The position numbers were made by a program, and so were the translations under genes. A stretch of DNA of 62,376 nt from Candidatus Desantisbacteria bacterium CG1_02_49_89 (GTDB lineage Bacteria; Desantisbacteria; UBA1551): positions 1-62,376 of the forward strand of contig MNUP01000143.1 in the NCBI GenBank assembly GCA_001871075.1. The letters are read 5' to 3'. Under the pieces are notes generated by a model, which worked only from the letters and a program-made list of their open reading frames with translations, was not told where the DNA came from and searched no databases. Below are positions 1,508-61,672 of this stretch, piece by piece. Positions within the stretch are counted from its first letter, which is position 1. Each line of letters starts with the position of its first letter.

Positions 1508-1701
1508 CCCCTGCAGTCCGATGCAACATCGGACTCAATGCAGGGGCCTGCGCCCGCCAATATTCGTGGCGGGCTGCGGCACGAAAGCACTCCGCCCGAT
1601 GGCCATCGGGGCGGGTGAAAGCGTGCGATGAATCACGCCCCTACAAAGGGCGGGCAAGCCCGCCCTTACGTAAAAATGTCCCGATGAATCGGGACCGCTA
1701 C
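1508..1701. repeat. Hairpin cluster: CCCTGCA element plus three variable-stem CTAC hairpins
   Basis: 1508-1546 is a hairpin with outer arms CCCCTGCA/TGCAGGGG and inner arms GTCCGATG/CATCGGAC. A Cys-Gly-rich reading frame across it is a shadow. A 16-base palindrome CCCGAT..ATCGGG sits at 1595-1610. Then come three hairpins in tandem: GCGTG/CACGC (1621-1644), GGGCGGGC/GCCCGCCC (1648-1669) and GTCCCGAT/ATCGGGAC (1678-1701), each followed by CTAC or TTAC. No gene is seen in 1489-1851. Confidence 0.85.
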
Positions 1702-3239: not shown

Positions 3240-3524
3240 TTAGTAAGATTCCCCTCTTTCCTTAACAGTGAGCATAGATAGTATTTTTTCTTTTTCGTCA
3301 ATGGAATAAAAAAATCGCCAATCTCCAATGCGATATCTCCATACTTCATTATACTTGCCATGGAGTTTTTTTATGTTAAGGCCATAGTGGGGTTCTTCCT
3401 TTAATTGAGGATAAACATATTCAGCAAGCTTAAGTTTAATTTTTTCTTTGCGTCCTTTAAAGCCTTGGTGCTCTAACTTTTCAAGGAATTGGCTGGTTTC
3501 AAAAATTCTATACCTACCGCTCAT
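3240..3524 (-). CDS. RelE/ParE-family toxin
   Basis: A 94-aa protein of the RelE/ParE fold, whose members are mRNA interferases or gyrase inhibitors. The signature is the central strand WRYRIGDWRFFYSID and a C-terminal strand with a basic end (LTVKERGESY), close to the relBE/yafQ-like mRNA interferases. The start overlaps the antitoxin stop by 4 bp, the standard coupling of antitoxin-first modules. Whether it cuts mRNA cannot be settled from sequence alone. Confidence 0.85.
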   Translation of the reverse strand: MSGRYRIFETSQFLEKLEHQGFKGRKEKIKLKLAEYVYPQLKEEPHYGLNIKKLHGKYNEVWRYRIGDWRFFYSIDEKEKILSMLTVKERGESY

Positions 3525-3916: not shown

Positions 3917-4240
3917 ACAGGGATCTTCGAACGGGATTTAGACTGCTGTTTTCAGGGCTCCCACCTTAAGAATACATCAGGGCTGAAGCCCTGAGTTACG
4001 AAATACGCGGGCTTGATAAATCAAGCCCCTACAAACGTGCGATGAATCGCACCGCTACAAAGGGCGGGTGAAATATCCGGGCTCAATGAATTGAGCACCT
4101 ACATACACGCAGGCTTAAGCCTGCGGCTACAAAGGGCGGGCAACCGCCCATGAGATGGGCGAGTTCTCTGAAGCCCGCCCCTACGTAAAAATGTCCCGAT
4201 GAATCTTATCCCTGCAGCGCCTCCGGCGCTTAATGCAGGG
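3917..4240. repeat. Tandem array of variable-stem hairpins
   Basis: No gene is seen in 3810-4242. 3917-3939 is a half-palindrome (ACAGGGATCTTCGAACGGG). Five hairpins follow: TCAGGGCT/AGCCCTGA (3977-3999), GGGCTTGAT/ATCAAGCCC (4009-4032), GTGCGAT/ATCGCAC (4037-4058), GCTCAAT/ATTGAGC (4081-4102) and GCAGGCTT/AAGCCTGC (4109-4130). Each ends in (C/T)TAC. Then come CGCCCAT/ATGGGCG (about 4145-4161), a degraded unit, and at 4209-4240 a CCCTGCA/TGCAGGG hairpin with inner arms AGCGCC/GGCGCT. The element lies downstream of the converging ends of no gene, being the 3' side of the kinase gene and upstream of the antitoxin promoter. Confidence 0.85.
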
Positions 4241-4242
4241 AC

Positions 4243-6228
4243 CTACGAATCAGAACGGGGTTGATGATTCTCCGGGGATTTTTTCTTCTTACGGTGTCTT
4301 TTGCCGGAGAAGAATCTTTTAATTTTATGCCACCAGGTCCTTTCGCCTTGTTCCTCGCCGTTACTGTAATTATAGTCGTAGTAATAGTTGTAATACTTGT
4401 TATAATAATACTTGTTCGTTGCCCCGCTCTTTGTTTCGTTAAGGACCACCCCGAGTATCGGCGTTTTTATTTTTTTAAGCTGTTCCACAGCCCTGTTCAG
4501 CATCCCCTTGGCGACTTTGCCTACCTGATAAACCAAGACGACCCCATCCGATATTTCGCTTAACAGGATGGCGTCGCTGACAGGAAAAATGGGAGGCGAA
4601 TCAAGGACAACAAGGTCAAACTTAGACCTTACGGTTCCGATCAATTCCTTGAAATCCTTTGAATTTATTAAATTGCTGGGGTTGTAGGGAATTGTCCCGC
4701 AGGTAATAACCTTCAGGTTGCTGCGGACAAGTGTGTTTTCCTGCGAGCTTACGTTAAGCCTGCCTTTTATCTCTTTAAAATGGCTATTGATATCACTGGA
4801 ATTTACTACTAAATCCGTCAGGCCGGGTTCGCGCTCAACCCCGAACATCTGGTGTATAGCCGGCTTCCTGAAATCCGTTTCAAGAAGGAGGACTTTCAGG
4901 TTTGACTGTGCGCAGATGATCGCGAAGTTTGAAGCGGTAAGCGTCTTGCCCTCACCTGAGATGGTGCTTGTGAACAGGACAACCTTGCTCGCGCCTTCTT
5001 TTATGCCGGAAACCCTCATACTCACCTGGAACCTGCGGTAAGCTTCCGCGAACACGGATGTCGGGCTGTAGAGAATAAGATTCCTGCTGATGAGTTCATT
5101 ACTCTCGTCTTTATCCGGATCTCCGTTACCTTTCCCGTTTATGCTTATGAAAGGGATCATTCCAAGGACAGGAAGATGCAGGTATCCTTCCACTTCCTCG
5201 ATCGTGCCCATTGAAGTATCAAGGTTATCCCGGATGCTTGCAAAGCCTAAACCTGCCATCAGGCCCGCTATGATCCCGACCATCATATTCAACGGCTTGT
5301 TGGGAATAACCGGGTTTTCAGGCGTCATAGGGAAATTGATAACGGTCACAGGGGAGAAATTCTGCGCTTCGGATATAAGGGCTTCCTTATACCTCGTATT
5401 GAGCGTAATTATTTCATTCTCAGCCATAGTAACTTCCATTTTCAATCTTTCCTTCTCCGCTTCCAGCACCGGGAGTTTCTTTAAGGTGCCCTCGATCTCT
5501 TTTATCTGTTTTCTCTGGTTGATCACAGAAAGGTGATTTTCCGTGTATTTGTCTATAAGGACAGGCAGCTGCATTTGTAAATTGGCAAGCTTAGATTTCA
5601 ACAGTTCCCCGGATTCAATGGCGCGCGCCTTTTCCGACTCTTGAAACTTGATCAAGTCCTGCTGGGCTTTATCCCGCGATCCCTTTGCCAGGACGATCTG
5701 GTTTTCCACAAAACGCCGGACTTCCACGGCTTCCCGGCTCTGTTCCTGGAAGCTTGCCTCTTTATAAACCTCGATAAGGGTGTTTGCCAGAAAAACAGCG
5801 TTTTCAGGTTTTCTACCGGCAAAATCTATCTTTACAAGATCTTTTGTCCCCTTCTGGGAAACAACGGTTATTCTGGAATTTAAATATGCGATGCTCTTTT
5901 CAACATCTAAAGGAGAGGAATCAACGCCGATAAGCCCCATTCTCAAGGCCGTGTTTTTCAACACGCCTGAGCTTGTTATTGATTTCAGCTCGCTTTCCAG
6001 GTTCTGGTCCCTGGAAGAAAAGAAATCCTCTATTGACCTGGGCGCCGAAGCGAATTTTATCCTTATTATCGCGGAAGCCTTATAAACGGGGATCTTGTAC
6101 TCGGTATAGATAAAAGTCAGGGCAACAGCCGCAGCCAGGCAGCAGACTATCGTCCATCTCTGCCTGGAAAAGATCCTCAGGTATTCGGTGATATCCATTT
6201 CTTTGTCAGGCGATCCGGTTTCCAGCAT
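4243..6228 (-). CDS. Polysaccharide co-polymerase with C-terminal BY-type tyrosine kinase
   Basis: This inner-membrane protein combines the Wzz/GumC chain-length domain with a bacterial tyrosine kinase and controls capsule or exopolysaccharide polymerisation and export. A first membrane segment lies near residues 26-42 and a second near 313-332, with a coiled-coil-rich periplasmic region between them. The kinase half has Walker A STISGEGKT (421-429), Walker A' LLLETDFRKP (447-456) and Walker B LVVLDSPP (539-546). It ends in a cluster of ten Tyr (607-621), the usual autophosphorylation site, then a basic tail. The start follows AGGAGG. It sits downstream of the Wza-type gene on the same strand, as in capsule operons, but no glycosyltransferases are nearby. 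Confidence 0.92.
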   Translation of the reverse strand: MLETGSPDKEMDITEYLRIFSRQRWTIVCCLAAAVALTFIYTEYKIPVYKASAIIRIKFASAPRSIEDFFSSRDQNLESELKSITSSGVLKNTALRMGLIGVDSSPLDVEKSIAYLNSRITVVSQKGTKDLVKIDFAGRKPENAVFLANTLIEVYKEASFQEQSREAVEVRRFVENQIVLAKGSRDKAQQDLIKFQESEKARAIESGELLKSKLANLQMQLPVLIDKYTENHLSVINQRKQIKEIEGTLKKLPVLEAEKERLKMEVTMAENEIITLNTRYKEALISEAQNFSPVTVINFPMTPENPVIPNKPLNMMVGIIAGLMAGLGFASIRDNLDTSMGTIEEVEGYLHLPVLGMIPFISINGKGNGDPDKDESNELISRNLILYSPTSVFAEAYRRFQVSMRVSGIKEGASKVVLFTSTISGEGKTLTASNFAIICAQSNLKVLLLETDFRKPAIHQMFGVEREPGLTDLVVNSSDINSHFKEIKGRLNVSSQENTLVRSNLKVITCGTIPYNPSNLINSKDFKELIGTVRSKFDLVVLDSPPIFPVSDAILLSEISDGVVLVYQVGKVAKGMLNRAVEQLKKIKTPILGVVLNETKSGATNKYYYNKYYNYYYDYNYSNGEEQGERTWWHKIKRFFSGKRHRKKKKSPENHQPRSDS

Positions 6229-6258: not shown

Positions 6259-6365
6259 GATTACAGCGATTAAAGACCGATGTCAGCGATAAAAACATTT
6301 TTTACAGGGATCTTCGAACGGGATTTAAACTACTGATATCAGGGCTGAAGCCCTGAGTTACGAAA
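6259..6365 (-). repeat. Composite leader upstream of the tyrosine-kinase gene
   Basis: Read in the direction of the kinase gene, this leader holds three repeat modules in order. First is the hairpin TCAGGGCT..AGCCCTGA (about 6340-6364). Next is the half-palindrome TTAAATCCCGTTCGAAGATC (about 6306-6328). Last are two 12-mers, ATCGCTGACATCG (6290-6278) and ATCGCTGTAATC (6270-6259). The ribosome binding site follows. The same order occurs upstream of ptsI, and the last two modules recur upstream of the PTS IIA gene. Confidence 0.75.
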
Positions 6366-7490: not shown

Positions 7491-7858
7491 CCCGCCCCGA
7501 TGGTCCTCGGGGCGAGGTCTCGCCCCAAAGGGGCGGATAACATCGTTTTTTAGATACATCAGGGCTGAAGCCCTGAGTTACGCAAACTGTAACTATAACT
7601 CAGACCTTTTCGAAGACCCGCCTCCGCCTTAAGAATTGGCGGATGCGCCAATATTTAAGGTGCAAATCTTTAAGGATGGAGGTCTGATAAATACATCAGG
7701 GCGAGCCCTCGCCCCTTTGGGGCGGGCGAAATACGCGGGCTTGATAAATCAAGCCCCTACACCGCAAAGTTACCCCCGCAGACCTCCCTCCTAATAAAAC
7801 TGGCGGGTCTTCGAAAAGGTCTGCCCTACGAAAACACGCAAAGCTACTACGAAAGATG
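7491..7858. repeat. Non-coding repeat mosaic between export gene and ptsI
   Basis: I see no gene here. The stretch holds tandem CATCG words (7465-7490) and a compound GC-rich hairpin, GCCCCGATGGTCCTCGGGGC followed by CGCCCCAAAGGGGCGG (7491-7540). Next are the TCAGGGCT hairpin (7559-7581), the second copy of the 53-bp inverted repeat (7617-7669), and GGGCTTGAT/ATCAAGCCC with its CTAC tail (7737-7760). One more hairpin, GGGGCT/AGCCCC (7863-7877), runs into the 3' end of ptsI. Confidence 0.8.
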
Positions 7859-9610: not shown

Positions 9611-9734
9611 GATTACGGTGATTTCTAAAAAAATGATTACAGTGATTATTAGAAGATGATTACGGTGTTGAAACTTTTTACAGGGATTCAAAGAGATTTA
9701 AACTGCCGTTTTCAGGGCTAAAGCCCTGAGTTAC
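9611..9734 (-). repeat. Composite leader upstream of ptsI
   Basis: In the direction of ptsI this region carries the hairpin TCAGGGCT..AGCCCTGA (9734-9712), the half-palindrome TTAAATCTCTTTGAATCCC (about 9701-9680), and three near-copies of ATCACCGTAATC (9667-9658 partial, 9646-9635, 9622-9611). The ptsI ribosome binding site follows. The module order is the same as upstream of the tyrosine-kinase gene. 9751-9785 adds a GCCCGCC/GGCGGG palindrome whose near-identical copy is inside the archease gene. Confidence 0.8.
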
Positions 9735-14095: not shown

Positions 14096-14420
14096 TTACA
14101 GGGATTCACGAGATTCATAATGCCGTCGTGCGTCATGCGTCGAACGTCTTACGTAAATACCGTCGTATGTCGTAGGTCATACGTTTAAAAGATTCATGCG
14201 CACGACGCAAGACGTACGACGTTCGACGTGAAACGAACGACGTACGACTTACGACGTAAGACGGAATCTAAATCTCTTTCGAAGATCACTGTAAAAAGCT
14301 TTTACAGGGATCCTGCGAGCGGGATTTAAACTGCTGTTCCAGGGCTGAAACCCTGAGTTACATTGCAAACCTAAAGGTTTGCCCTACGAAAACTAATAGC
14401 AGAGCAAGCTCTGCCACTAC
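14096..14420. repeat. Large palindromic word repeat, inverted half-elements and three hairpins
   Basis: The gap 14060-14479 has no gene. 14121-14263 is a long imperfect palindrome made of CGTCGTGCGTCATGCGTCG-like words on the left and the reversed words CGACGTACGACTTACGACG on the right. 14267-14330 is a two-armed unit, AAATCTCTTTCGAAGATCAC facing TTTTACAGGGATCCTGCGAG. Three hairpins follow: CAGGG/CCCTG (14340-14361), GCAAACCT/AGGTTTGC (14365-14387) and GCAGAGC/GCTCTGC (14399-14420), each with a TTAC or CTAC tail. 14440-14485 is TTTAACCTTTAACC-type sequence. Confidence 0.8.
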
Positions 14421-16777: not shown

Positions 16778-16811
16778 GCCCTCTCCTTTGAACAGAAATT
16801 ATGAATCAGGG

Positions 16812-18428
16812 CTAAAGCCCTGAGTTATCCGCCCCGATGTCCATCGGGGCGAGACCTCGCCCCGAAGGGGCGGGCAATAGAAATCCTTGTTGTTGATTCA
16901 TAATTGATTTAATGGCGTAAGGCACTTTTTCGGCGATATCGGAGGCGATAACGCCTATTTCGCCTTTTTCTTCAGCCGCAAGGTCTCCGGCAAGGCCGTG
17001 GATATACACGCTGGTTTTAGCTGATCCAAGCGCGCTTATTTTCTGCCCCAGCAAAGCGGCCATGATACCGGCCAGCACGTCCCCGCTGCCCCCGGTCGCC
17101 ATACCCGGATTACCTGTAAGGTTAATCCACACGTTTCCTTCCGGGCACGCGATCACTGTCCTCGCGCCCTTCAGGACCGTGACAACCCCGTATTCAGCGG
17201 AAAAATCCTTTGCTGCCTCGATCCTGCGGGACTGGATCTCCCCGATCGTTTTTCCTGTCAGGAACGCCATCTCCCCGGGGTGCGGGGTGATTATCGTCGT
17301 AGATGCTTTTCTTTTTTTGAGTATTTCCGCGTTCCCCTTCAGCGCGAATATCGCATCAGCATCTATGACCATCGGTTTCCCGATGCCTTCTATTATCTCT
17401 ACTGCCAGCCTGCAGGTTTTGCCGGCCCTGGAAAGCCCGGGCCCTACGGCAACAGCGTCAGTTTCTTCCGAGAACCTGAGTATTTCTCCGAAAGCTTCTT
17501 CGCCAAGCGACCGGTTCTCGGTCTCCGGCAGGGGTTTCGTCATTGCCTCTGTCAGTTTTATTTCAAGTATGTTATTAAGGCTTGCGGGCACACCCGCTGT
17601 TACAAGCCCCGCGCCGCTCCGCAGCGCTCCCAGGCATGCCAGCGTTGTCGCGCCCGTCATCCCGGCTGAACCTGAAATTATGAAAACGCGCCCGTACGTG
17701 CCTTTGTGCGTGTCCTGTTTCCTTGGTTCCAAAACTGAAGCCGCGTCTTCCCGGGTTATCATATTCAACCAGGATGTACCAACCAGGCCCCGCGGTATAC
17801 CGATATCAAGCACCTTTATTTTTCCCGCGTATTCCGCTCCCGGAAAAAGCATCAGGCCTTTTTTCGGCAGTCCCAGGGTAAAAGTGTGATCCGCCGCGAC
17901 GCAGGCGCCGTTCACTTCTCCGTTATCCGCGTTAAGGCCGGACGGGACGTCAATGGAGATCTTCAGGGAATCAGTGCTGTTCAGTAAACTTATTGCTTCC
18001 GCTTCTATTCCTTTTATCTCTCCCCTGAAACCGGTCCCGAACAGCGCGTCGATAACCGCGCCGCAATCCCGCAGGTCCCGCGCTAATCCACCGGTTGCCT
18101 TCACGCTATGGACGTTGCCGCCGGACTTCCTGAGCAGGCCAAGGTTCTTCTTCGCGAGGGGTGAGAGATCTTTTACGTCATTAAAAATAAACACTTCAGG
18201 GCTGGTCCCTCTTTCCCCGAGGTGCCTTGCCGCCACAAAACCGTCTCCGCCGTTGTTGCCCTTTCCGCACAGGACGCATATTTTCTTCCTTTTAAAGCCG
18301 GGCAGCAGCTTTATGGCCTCGAGCGCCGCGTTCCTGCCGGCGTTTTCCATCATCTGGGCGCGGCTCACCCCGTGCTTTTCAGCCGCTTCCTCGATCCCGG
18401 CCATTTCTTTTGCGGTTACTACTCTCAT
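16812..18428 (-). CDS. nnr: Bifunctional NAD(P)H-hydrate epimerase / ADP-dependent dehydratase
   Basis: This repairs hydrated NAD(P)H. The N-terminal epimerase half (1-220) has the motif CGKGNNGGDGFVAARHL. The C-terminal ribokinase-like dehydratase half has NPGMATGGSGDVLAG near 450, the catalytic Asp region. The fusion is standard in bacteria. The last 30 residues or so (after AIKSIMNQQQG) and the stop are not family-like: they are read from a repeat whose GCCCCGATG..CATCGGGGC and AGGGCTTTAGCCCT palindromes occur elsewhere, and the stop TAG lies inside the second palindrome. The natural C-terminus was therefore probably replaced or extended by a repeat. Confidence 0.93.
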   Translation of the reverse strand: MRVVTAKEMAGIEEAAEKHGVSRAQMMENAGRNAALEAIKLLPGFKRKKICVLCGKGNNGGDGFVAARHLGERGTSPEVFIFNDVKDLSPLAKKNLGLLRKSGGNVHSVKATGGLARDLRDCGAVIDALFGTGFRGEIKGIEAEAISLLNSTDSLKISIDVPSGLNADNGEVNGACVAADHTFTLGLPKKGLMLFPGAEYAGKIKVLDIGIPRGLVGTSWLNMITREDAASVLEPRKQDTHKGTYGRVFIISGSAGMTGATTLACLGALRSGAGLVTAGVPASLNNILEIKLTEAMTKPLPETENRSLGEEAFGEILRFSEETDAVAVGPGLSRAGKTCRLAVEIIEGIGKPMVIDADAIFALKGNAEILKKRKASTTIITPHPGEMAFLTGKTIGEIQSRRIEAAKDFSAEYGVVTVLKGARTVIACPEGNVWINLTGNPGMATGGSGDVLAGIMAALLGQKISALGSAKTSVYIHGLAGDLAAEEKGEIGVIASDIAEKVPYAIKSIMNQQQGFLLPAPSGRGLAPMDIGADNSGL

Positions 18429-26634: not shown

Positions 26635-26706
26635 TTCGTTGTAACATCGTTTTAAAATCGTTAACGATTTTAAAACGACTCTATAACGATTTAACAACGA
26701 TTTAAC
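26635..26706. repeat. CGATTTTAAAACG palindromic word repeat
   Basis: The short gap between rtcB and the TPR gene is a palindrome built of AAAATCGTTAACGATTTT and neighbouring ACGATTTAACAACG words. It can fold into a long AT-rich hairpin and might act as a transcript end for rtcB. Confidence 0.6.
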
Positions 26707-26710
26707 GTTG

Positions 26711-29686
26711 TCAGCCTTTAATAACCCCTATCGGCCTCATTTTCGCGACCTTCCTTGAAAGGCCGGCTCCGTGCACGACATTCACGACGTCGTTCACGTT
26801 CTTATACGCTTCCGGGATCTCCTCCATAAGGGTTTCTATCTCGGCCGAACGCACGATAATGCCCTTTTCTGAGAATTCCTTCAGGAGCGGCCTTTCGCGG
26901 CTTGCCCTGATGGCAGCGTGCCTTGACATCAACCTTCCCGCGCCGTGGCATACCGTGCCGAAAGTTTCTTTCATCGCAAGCTCGGTCCCGGCCAGCACGT
27001 ATGAATTCCTTCCCATGTCCCCGGGGATCAGCACCGGCTGGCCGGTTTTCGCGTAGAGCCCGGGAAGTCCAGGGCTTCCTGACGGGAAAGCCCTGGTCGC
27101 GCCTTTCCTGTGGACGCATACCTTCTGCTTTTTCCCGGATACATAGTGCTCCTCGAACTTCGCGACATTGTGAGCGACGTCATATACCTGCTTCATACCA
27201 AGCGATTCCGCGCTTTCCCCAAAAACTTCCTCGAAGACCTTCCTTGTCCAGTGGGTTATGCACTGCCTGTTCGTCCAGGCGTAATTGGCAGCCGAAGCCA
27301 TTGCCTCGAAATAGTCCCTGCCCTCCTTTGAACTAATGGGAGCGCAGGCAAGCTGCTTGTCCGGGAGCTGTATCCTGTATTTCTGGACCGCGCCCTGCAT
27401 AACGACTATGTAGTCGTCGCAGACCTGGTACCCGAAACCCCTGGAACCGGTATGGATCATCACGACTATCTGGTCCTTTTCGATCCCGAAAACTTCCGCG
27501 GTTTCCGGCTCAAAGATCTCCTCCACTACCTGCACCTCCAGGAAATGGTTTCCCGCGCCCAGGGTCCCAAGCTGTTTAAGCCCCCTGTCCGTGGCTTTTT
27601 TGCTTACTTTGTCCGGGTTGGCTCCCTGCATAGAACCGTTCTCCTCAGTGAATTCAAGGTCTTCCTTCCACCCGTATCCCCTGTCAACCGCCCATTTCGC
27701 GCCCTTTGTCATAACCTTCGCTGCTTCGGAATAATCAAGGTGTATGCCGCCCTTTGAACCGACGCCTGAAGGTATCGCGCTGAAAAGAGCGTCTACAAGA
27801 ATTCCCACCTTATCCTTAACGTCTTTAATGTGGAGATCGGTCCGCAGCAGCCTGACGCCGCAGTTTGAAACAACAAAATTATTTGCAGTGAAATTGTGGT
27901 CCCTGTGATCCACGGTAAAGTCATAGACATAACCGCTGAAATCTACCTTTTCGATCTTCTCGATCCTGTCCCATACATAGACAGTGCGCTCCAGCCCCGC
28001 CGAGATCTCTTTTTTATAACCAGAATACCCCGGGAAATTGAGCGCGATCCTCGGTTTTTCTCTCCCCTCGTAAAGCGACCTTTCCAGAAATCTTCTGTTG
28101 ACGAATTCCGAACTTAGCTCAGAATAGATCCTTGAAGGACCTTCGCCGGCCTGATGCATTGCCAAAGCCGTCCGCGCCGCGAAATCCCTTTTTCTGACCA
28201 CTTTGCCTTTGACCCTCAGATACTGAACCACGGCGTTACTTTCATCTCTCTTGTTTTTGTTATATTCAAAATTCACGGTTTCGTAGAACCTTATCAAATT
28301 TTCCGCGTCATTGCTGACAACAAGGCGCAGGCGATGCGAAATATCTCTGTTCTTGTTTATATGTTCTTCTCTTTCACCTATTTTTTGCAGTGTGACCCCG
28401 AACCCTGAAAGAAGTAATCCGATCTGCCCGAGAAAACGCCTGGCATTATCCGAGAGTTCCTTCAATTTATTCATAGAGACGCAGGGGGAATGAAAATTAA
28501 ACTGGTTCGGGATAGGTTTCGGGCTTGACATTTCCGCGCCAAAAAATGAAGCAAGGAACAACCGTTTCTGCCAGAGAGGCGCGTTAAAGATCCACTGCGG
28601 AACTTCATATTCCTGGCTGACTTTTTTCCCCTGAGGCACGCCCAGTGAAACCAGCAGGCCCGCAAAAACTGTTCCGACAACCTTTATCATATGTTCATTA
28701 TGGACAAATTCATAATGGTCATAGGAAGTATCTATTTTGCAGTTCCTGACACGGGTGTAGACCCTGGAAGGGGTAAACCCGAGTTTCAGAATATCCCTGC
28801 GTATATCTTCAAGGTCCTCGGGCTTGCCGTAGAATTGCGTCACTCCCTTGCCTGTTTTGTGCTGGAAATATATCGTTCCGTCCCCGAACACATAGCCCAT
28901 AATCTTTAACAGGTACGGAACCTGCGGAGAATTATACCTGATCGGCATGCAGTTCCTTTTCCCGAGAAACGTCATTGCCTGTCTCAACCCGGAACCCCGC
29001 AGGCCTTTGCCGAATCTCATAAGCACGGTTTTGATCTTTTGTTCATTAATAATGATTTTTTCACCCGGATCCTCGTAAGGCACGCCTGTAAAATGCCGGA
29101 CAGCAACGGTGTCCCCGCCTGCCAGGTCTTTTATCGGCACCATTCCGTCGGGAGTCCAGAAAGGATGGTCCGCGGTTGCCGTTACCTCCCTGCCGCTGCA
29201 GGTTTTTAGCCTGTAAATCTGGTTTTGTGGTTTTATTTTAATAAATCTGCCGATAGAAGCAACCGCTGCCGAAGATTCAGCGAGAACCACGGAACTCAGG
29301 CTTATCTCTCTCCATTTTTTTTCGAACTCTTCTATCGGCATATAGTAACCATGCTCGCACGTGATCTTCGTATCGCCCGGGAGGCAGTTTATGTCATAAC
29401 CCACCCCGCCAGGAGAAATGACCCCCTGTTCGGGATCCGTGGCTGCAACTCCCCCTATCGCGAATCCGTAACCCCAGTGTATATCCGGCATGCCAAAAGA
29501 GAAATTTATTATTCCGGGAAGATAAGCAACATTCCTAACCTGGTTCAGGCTCTGCTCTTTCCTGATATCAGCCATGAGTTTCTCGTCCGCGTACACAATG
29601 CCAGGGACGCGCATCCCTTCTTCCTTCGGGAGGCGCCATCTGTACTCATCCATTTTTTCTATTTTACCCTGCCATTGTTCACCCAT
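26711..29686 (-). CDS. rtcB: RtcB RNA ligase precursor containing an intein
   Basis: RtcB joins 2',3'-cyclic-phosphate or 3'-phosphate RNA ends to 5'-OH ends using GTP and Mn2+. The start at 29686 has GGAGGAG in front, giving 991 aa. N-extein residues 1-100 include GGVGYDIN; the C-extein (609-991) begins CGVRLL. It carries the metal/GMP motifs LGTLGAGNHFLEVQ, MIHTGSRGFG, YDVAHNVAKFEEH and CHGAGRLMSR (the guanylylated His). Between them is a 508-aa intein at residues 101-608. The exteins give a 483-aa ligase, the normal size. Archease, its cofactor, is encoded 2.3 kb upstream. Confidence 0.95.
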   Translation of the reverse strand: MGEQWQGKIEKMDEYRWRLPKEEGMRVPGIVYADEKLMADIRKEQSLNQVRNVAYLPGIINFSFGMPDIHWGYGFAIGGVAATDPEQGVISPGGVGYDINCLPGDTKITCEHGYYMPIEEFEKKWREISLSSVVLAESSAAVASIGRFIKIKPQNQIYRLKTCSGREVTATADHPFWTPDGMVPIKDLAGGDTVAVRHFTGVPYEDPGEKIIINEQKIKTVLMRFGKGLRGSGLRQAMTFLGKRNCMPIRYNSPQVPYLLKIMGYVFGDGTIYFQHKTGKGVTQFYGKPEDLEDIRRDILKLGFTPSRVYTRVRNCKIDTSYDHYEFVHNEHMIKVVGTVFAGLLVSLGVPQGKKVSQEYEVPQWIFNAPLWQKRLFLASFFGAEMSSPKPIPNQFNFHSPCVSMNKLKELSDNARRFLGQIGLLLSGFGVTLQKIGEREEHINKNRDISHRLRLVVSNDAENLIRFYETVNFEYNKNKRDESNAVVQYLRVKGKVVRKRDFAARTALAMHQAGEGPSRIYSELSSEFVNRRFLERSLYEGREKPRIALNFPGYSGYKKEISAGLERTVYVWDRIEKIEKVDFSGYVYDFTVDHRDHNFTANNFVVSNCGVRLLRTDLHIKDVKDKVGILVDALFSAIPSGVGSKGGIHLDYSEAAKVMTKGAKWAVDRGYGWKEDLEFTEENGSMQGANPDKVSKKATDRGLKQLGTLGAGNHFLEVQVVEEIFEPETAEVFGIEKDQIVVMIHTGSRGFGYQVCDDYIVVMQGAVQKYRIQLPDKQLACAPISSKEGRDYFEAMASAANYAWTNRQCITHWTRKVFEEVFGESAESLGMKQVYDVAHNVAKFEEHYVSGKKQKVCVHRKGATRAFPSGSPGLPGLYAKTGQPVLIPGDMGRNSYVLAGTELAMKETFGTVCHGAGRLMSRHAAIRASRERPLLKEFSEKGIIVRSAEIETLMEEIPEAYKNVNDVVNVVHGAGLSRKVAKMRPIGVIKG
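27863..29386 (-). other. Intein with LAGLIDADG endonuclease inside RtcB
   Basis: The 508-aa intein starts at Cys (CLPGDTKITCEHGYYMP, block A) and ends ANNFVVSN before the C-extein Cys. Block B is VTATADHPFWTPDG (His of the TxxH motif). LAGLIDADG-type segments are LLKIMGYVFGDG and LFLASFFGAE, so a homing endonuclease domain is present; its second motif has Gly-Ala-Glu in place of the usual Asp/Glu pattern. The penultimate residue is Ser rather than the common His. The junction Cys+1 is the conserved Mn-binding Cys of RtcB, the same insertion point as known archaeal RtcB inteins. Confidence 0.92.
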
Positions 29687-54742: not shown

Positions 54743-54831
54743 AATTATGAGTTATGAATTAACAACAAGGCTTTAAATCGTAACTCAGGGCTTTAGCCCT
54801 GACTCATAACTTTGCCCTTCGGGCAACATTC
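54743..54831. repeat. 89-bp inverted repeat, copy 2 (partner 18553-18641)
   Basis: Reverse complement of the block at 18553-18641 with one mismatch, lying between acsB and acsC. It contains the AGGGCTttAGCCCT hairpin and GCCCttcGGGC. It splits the acs genes by 162 bases; whether the operon is transcribed through it is not known. Confidence 0.9.
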
Positions 54832-61616: not shown

Positions 61617-61649
61617 ATGCTTTGAACCACGGGTAAACACTGTTGTAAC

Positions 61650-61672
61650 TCAAGGCTTTAGCCTTGATACAA
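61650..61672. repeat. Variable-stem hairpin after ssb, possible terminator
   Basis: TCAAGGCT and AGCCTTGA form a perfect stem around TT, followed by TACAAATTTTCC. Compared with the common TCAGGGCT form, both arms have changed together, so complementarity is preserved. The modest T-run downstream could allow termination between ssb and the porV-like gene. Confidence 0.7.

Follow-up and report, generated by a model that had tools for sequence, protein, structure and literature searches.

Variable hairpins in a Desantisbacteria genome are most likely GTAG- and GTAA-tagged REP elements mobilised by RAYT transposases

Introduction

REP (repetitive extragenic palindrome) elements are very small hairpins of non-coding DNA, which a domesticated transposase is believed to spread. 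REPINs (Bertels and Rainey 2011) are said to be two head-to-head elements that are separated by a short spacer of fixed length and copied together.

Variable palindromes behind a GTAG tag are part of the published definition of REPs (PMC3686654, PMC3733652). REP stems are known to vary with pairing retained, described as "selection for complementary mutations" (PMC2817692), and "alternative complementary stem residues" have been reported within REP families (PMC3733652). In REPs that are perfect palindromes, cleavage drops strongly when the stem contains mismatches and certain loop bases are essential, and swapping stem letters with pairing kept has a moderate effect or none (PMC8266576).

Here we analysed a stretch of 62,376 nucleotides (the window) from Candidatus Desantisbacteria bacterium CG1_02_49_89, in which successive hairpins with differing stems and a constant CTAC tail had been noticed. 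Based on their sequence features, we conclude with a probability of roughly 0.92 that these hairpins are GTAG/GTAA-tagged REP elements, short and non-autonomous; RAYT (TnpAREP) transposases encoded elsewhere in the genome most likely move them as single-stranded DNA. This identity follows from the layout of the units, their copy number, their extragenic location, and the presence of RAYT genes inside or between REPs of two classes.

Results

Layout and stem classes of the hairpins

On the minus strand, the constant tail of the units becomes a leading GTAG (or GTAA) tag, and each unit consists of the tag, exactly 9 nt, a TY loop, and another 9 nt. This is the standard layout of a GTAG REP, and its constant part comprises tag, 9-nt spacing and loop. 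The five hairpins at 3976-4130 share one orientation, their 9-nt arms pair over at least the inner seven positions, and the loop is TC or TT, except for TA in the last of them (Table 1). In agreement with the original prediction, the five (starting at 3977, 4009, 4037, 4081, and 4108) are perfectly self-complementary over 7-9 bp around a loop of 2 nt (0 at 4108), and each is followed, 0-2 nt on, by (C/T)TAC, the complement of the GTAG/GTAA tag. The same prediction held that they are not a standard REP element, which is contradicted by the tail itself, since CTAC is the complement of the REP-defining GTAG (PMC3686654, PMC3733652). All sequence-level features that define GTAG REPs were found in the hairpins, including a GTAG-type tetranucleotide at the 5' foot of the palindrome, replaced by GTAA in one large class, and a short, mostly perfect, variable palindrome with a short loop. 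A CRISPR array was rejected, as it had been before, because there is no constant repeat, the stems differ between units, and the spacing is irregular.

Table 1 Hairpins of the window, with positions counted from its first letter.
Positions	Strand	Unit	Loop	Remark
1648..1669	-	GTAA-tagged palindrome GGGCGGGC-tt-GCCCGCCC		tag-to-loop distance 8
1678..1701	-	GTAG-cg-GTCCCGAT-tc-ATCGGGAC
3976..3999	-	REP, GTAA, (C)TCAGGGCT	TC
4009..4032	-	REP, GTAG, GGGCTTGAT	TT	AT-apex class
4035..4058	-	REP, GTAG, cg + GTGCGAT	TC	AT-apex class
4079..4102	-	REP, GTAG, gt + GCTCAAT	TC	AT-apex class
4107..4130	-	REP, GTAG, c + CGCAGGCT	TA	CT-apex class
4134..4184	-	longer GTAG hairpin, GTAG + GGGCGGGC ... GCCCGCCC		second stem-loop inserted at apex; sequence read directly
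4210..4246	-	composite bulged hairpin CCCTGCA...TGCAGGG		behind GTAG-gt
6338..6361	-	REP, GTAA, CTCAGGGCT
7558..7581	-	REP, GTAA, CTCAGGGCT
7737..7760	-	REP, GTAG, GGGCTTGAT
9711..9734	-	REP, GTAA, CTCAGGGCT
14338..14361	-	REP, GTAA		one T:G pair in inner stem (half-changed copy)
14364..14387	-	REP, GTAG, GGCAAACCT
14397..14420	-	REP, GTAG, TGGCAGAGC		GC-apex class
16805..16828	-	REP, CTCAGGGCT		tag altered to ATAA
18581..18604	-	REP, GTAA, CTCAGGGCT
54780..54803	+	REP, GTAA, CTCAGGGCT
61645..61668	+	REP, GTAA, CTCAAGGCT

The stems had been called unrelated. We found that they can be grouped into about four classes, each keeping its foot, apex and loop and varying in about three base pairs: GTAA with CTCAnnnCT; GTAG with a CT apex (GGCAnnnCT, CCGCAGGCT and kin); GTAG with an AT apex (GGGCnnnAT, CGGTnnnAT); and GTAG with a GC apex (TGGCAGAGC, CTGCAGGGC). 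The original prediction was to be refuted if the stems traced to one ancestral sequence, which they do within each class and not across classes. The earlier view that the palindrome is kept rather than its exact sequence is supported. In the GTAA class, only A or G occurs at two of the three variable positions of the tag-side arm. The most variable class is AT-apex, with eleven stem sequences in 22 copies, and its members (GGGCTTGAT, GTGCGAT, GCTCAAT) dominate the cluster in which the hairpins were first noticed. A species of the same order (G001) carries the same GTAA-CTCA class, the commonest core being GGA there and GGG here. The tag reads ATAA in eleven copies, all with stem CTCAGGGCT (at loci L033, L038, L043, L056, L248, L253, L256, L274, L286, and L287 and at 16805 in the window); these may represent a sub-lineage that has changed its tag and is active.

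Most of the other sites listed in the original prediction were recovered, with three corrections: 1621-1644 is not a perfect palindrome, the unit at 14338-14361 has one T:G pair in its inner stem, and the hairpin placed at 61650-61672 exists (61645-61668) in the opposite orientation, with its GTAA tag on the plus strand. The window also holds copies at 6338, 9711, 16805, 18581, and 54780 that had not been listed.

The gene at 4243-6228 codes for a Wzz/GNVR polysaccharide chain-length protein with a fused P-loop NTPase domain. Two longer GTAG-tagged hairpins (4134-4184 and 4210-4246) extend the cluster as far as the TAG stop codon of this gene (4243-4245), which is contained in the GTAG tag of the adjoining composite hairpin. 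Composite bulged hairpins of this form, in which CCCTGCA...TGCAGGG encloses an apical stem that varies and the tail is CTAC or CTGC, occur in the window at 1509-1545, 2626-2656, and 4210-4246. The 1.01 Mb read contains seven of them, and they resemble a second REP type with an imperfect palindrome. A gene for a ParE-like toxin (3243-3524) is located just past the REP cluster. Elsewhere in the window there are repeated multi-hairpin blocks CGCCCCGATGG..CGGGGCGAGGTCTCGCCCC with overlapping alternative stems (7493-7535, 7699-7724, and 16830-16872), and a perfect 32-bp palindrome TCGTTTTAAAATCGTTAACGATTTTAAAACGA (26647-26678) with a second inverted repeat close behind it (26694-26711). A query of a phage collection with the 3976-4246 cluster gave no match.

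Abundance and genomic location

Abundance was assessed in 837 kb of sequence chosen regardless of hairpin hits, though partly to include contigs with RAYT genes. A set of 1.01 Mb adds stretches around covariance-model hits and is hence enriched for such hits. The window alone contains 18 palindromes with a (C/T)TAC tail, compared with 1-5 in ten shuffles. When no tag was assumed, GTAG, GTAA and overlapping tetramers such as TAAC were the most enriched beside palindromes in 583 kb (GTAG 60 vs 3 and GTAA 52 vs 2 in shuffled sequence). In the 837 kb we counted 54 GTAG and 52 GTAA units with the exact 9-nt tag-loop distance, a 2-nt loop, and seven perfect inner pairs, while the same criteria returned about 0 in the shuffled 837 kb; such palindrome-plus-tail units are thus far above chance. 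Few units had tag-to-loop distances of 8 or 10. A covariance model of the hairpin gave at least 164 matches at E<=1 across the 2.48 Mb genome, with 150 of 725 candidates scored, so that there are many copies per genome, and the 1.01 Mb set, enriched for model hits, contains 212 perfect GTAR units with 31 distinct tag-plus-stem combinations. The units are mainly extragenic: 115 out of 145 were located outside large open reading frames, which cover 82% of the sequence.

RAYT genes in this and other genomes

The original prediction proposed looking for a REP-associated transposase gene, and RAYT genes were found. The genome encodes about eleven Y1-type transposases, including RAYT-family Y1/HUH members (PF01797). 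The protein from contig C23 scored 99.7 bits against the NCBIfam model REP_Tyr_transpos (NF047646, cut-off 80). The C23 pair, a gene on C111 and one MPR-type gene on C13 exceed this curated cut-off for REP-associated tyrosine transposases, and the RAYT on C57 (71.5 bits) falls below it, so the cut-off alone fails to separate the members flanked by REPs. The best solved relative of the C23 protein is E. coli TnpAREP (4er8), to which it aligns from its residue 26, ending soon after the domain. Its HLH motif and Y130 align on the HUH motif and on Tyr115, the catalytic residue of the E. coli enzyme.

Inverted cognate REPs flank the RAYT genes of two classes. The two near-identical genes on C23 (L018, 1717-4460) are each surrounded by alternating GTAA REPs, in arrays whose tandem periods are 25 and 60 bp, and the C57 gene lies between inverted GTAG CTGCAGGGC REPs of the GC-apex class. 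A RAYT flanked by AT-apex REPs was looked for in the genome and none was found; it could be missing from the assembly, which is 93.5% complete in 150 contigs.

We then analysed 80 loci encoding homologues of the C23 protein in many phyla (Deltaproteobacteria, Acidobacteria, Chloroflexi, Planctomycetes and others). Hairpins tagged with GTAG or GTAA were found at 66 of them, mostly within 700 bp of the gene and again most commonly with the geometry of 9 nt plus a 2-nt loop. Within the ±700 bp flanks, GTAG was by far the top tag, preceding 225 hairpins against a median of 10 per tetramer. The three closest homologues (57, 52, and 49%) have mostly GTAA-CTCA REPs, and the more distant ones have GTAG almost throughout. 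The hairpin model matched 20 of 95 genomes, our own included, and nearly all of the 20 also had a RAYT match. MPR-type Y1 transposases were considered as cognate enzymes and rejected, as they showed no association with tagged hairpins (GTAG 1 and GTAA 1 in 30 loci). With these results, a sparsely sampled bacterial phylum gains several RAYT/REP classes, and a GTAA tag and CTCA foot prove to be common to the C23 RAYT and its three closest homologues, across phyla.

Inverted and tandem neighbours

Close neighbours in inverted orientation were found to avoid identical stems. With stems shuffled within class, 13.6 of 34 such pairs in the genome were expected to be identical and none was; the corresponding numbers were 0 of 28 (7.5 expected) in the same-order relative G001 and 9 of 83 (29.9 expected) at the 80 RAYT loci. 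It should be considered that inverted dimers are copied as units, leaving only about 11-13 independent types per genome. Tandem neighbours behaved differently, sharing identical stems in 22 of 34 cases in G001 (10.6 expected) and 36 of 48 at the RAYT loci (30.4 expected). In our own genome, tandem neighbours are mostly of different classes, and 1 of 30 pairs was identical. Since only inverted identical pairs form a long perfect palindrome, selection against palindromes is the simplest reading: inverted neighbours most likely avoid the same stem because identical units that face each other together form a perfect palindrome just under 50 bp long, which is cut or deleted. Removal by SbcCD-like nucleases or by deletion would favour stem diversity. 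A heterodimer preference of REPs, said to be without obvious explanation, and the SbcCD idea have already been published (PMC3733652). What is new here is a number for the preference and a tandem control, which point to avoidance of long palindromes. A more speculative extension, which we consider rather doubtful, is that diversity of REP stems is actively favoured, as facing neighbours must differ to avoid a long perfect palindrome and hairpin-templated correction keeps the arms of each unit matched ('pair within, never pair between').

Why both arms change

By analogy with the biochemistry of other RAYTs, the enzyme would require the tag, a loop base and a mismatch-free stem and would tolerate differing stem sequences. 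This fits the earlier suggestion of an enzyme that reads the structure, given the RAYT/TnpAREP genes in the genome and the published TnpAREP biochemistry (PMC8266576). Stems could then drift provided that both arms drift. Because stem mismatches reduce cleavage and paired swaps are tolerated, only paired versions should multiply or persist. Stems may thus differ and yet stay paired because the tag, the loop and the pairing matter more than the letters of the stem.

Judging from the copies themselves, a stem would change in two steps, each an ordinary transition, with a G.T or A.C pair in between. Nine tagged elements with one mismatch were found beside a known stem, all of the transition type (6 G·T and 3 A·C, zero transversions), and three of the nine combine one arm from each of two known stems. 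These intermediates suggest that stepwise mutation explains the change in both arms. Base-pair counts were taken on copies chosen for pairing and are supportive only. Close relatives were sought with a 550-aa protein from the window, and none nearer than the same order was found.

The original prediction also offered arm-to-arm copying, in which a polymerase switches template in the extruded hairpin and rewrites one arm from the other, so that a one-arm mutation is transferred and stems diversify while staying perfect. Such copying would likewise yield few intermediates, and tagged 9-nt units with one mismatch are indeed barely above chance (7 and 10 vs 7 and 7 expected), in contrast to the 54 and 52 perfect ones. 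Per base, stem pairing is also somewhat better kept than the tag, a difference based on small numbers in which the eleven ATAA copies may be one lineage. However, half-changed copies are present, all of the transition type predicted by point mutation, and three stand precisely halfway from one known stem to another; in the GTAA class, two of the three variable pairs change A/G only; and decay is also slight in the tag, for which no partner arm exists, and not clearly different from that of the stem at these small numbers. Mutation plus selection suffices, and copying, which is not needed, is an improbable account.

More improbable still is that the hairpins act mainly as RNA, ending or stabilising transcripts downstream of genes, with selection on RNA folding keeping the arms paired. 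In its favour, the gene at 4243-6228 has the 3976-4246 cluster directly behind its stop and on its own strand, the units are mostly extragenic, and some REPs do act on mRNA (PMC3733652). Against this, only one hairpin in the cluster is terminator-like, which equals the rate in shuffled sequence, and G.U pairs, harmless in RNA, are rare here. An RNA role would also leave the fixed tag, the 9-nt ruler and the association with RAYTs unexplained. An Rfam search of the window gave no match. Chance palindromes in intergenic DNA, reflecting nothing beyond the general frequency of short palindromes, are practically impossible, given that 106 perfect tagged units were counted where shuffles gave about 0.

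Comparison with known REP systems

The REP elements described here share with the GTAG REP super-family (Di Nocera, De Gregorio and Rocco 2013, PMC3733652) a GTAG-type tag at one end, stems of mostly 6-9 bp with short and often TY loops, intergenic location, alternative complementary stem letters within families, HH/TT/HT arrangements, and the heterodimer preference. They differ in belonging to a genome that, as far as is known, lies outside the listed phyla, in having one large GTAA class, and in forming head-to-tail trains of mixed classes spaced about 26-33 nt apart, a mildly unusual arrangement for REPs. With the Group 3 REPtrons (TnpAREP of Stenotrophomonas maltophilia and Marinomonas; PMC8266576) they share short perfect palindromes, a tag and a short loop, as well as a RAYT with an HUH motif, an aligned tyrosine, and inverted flanking REPs. 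In REPtrons the RAYT cleaves its own REP as single-stranded DNA and spares the complement, and the Group 3 enzymes are distinguished from E. coli TnpAREP by an N-terminal extension and the lack of a long C-terminal tail. The REPs, BIMEs and RAYTs of Stenotrophomonas (PMC2817692, PMC3686654) likewise comprise several RAYT/REP classes per genome, hybrid clusters, and palindromes kept with differing stems, and some have similar sequences (SM12 GTAGAGTCGAGCTTGCTCGACT; Pent1 TGTAGGAGCGGATTCATCCGCGAT), whereas the stems and the organism are different. The inverted dimers found here resemble REPINs in their head-to-head arrangement, their short spacer of fixed length and their copying as one unit. 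Unlike in REPINs, the two halves here always have different stems.
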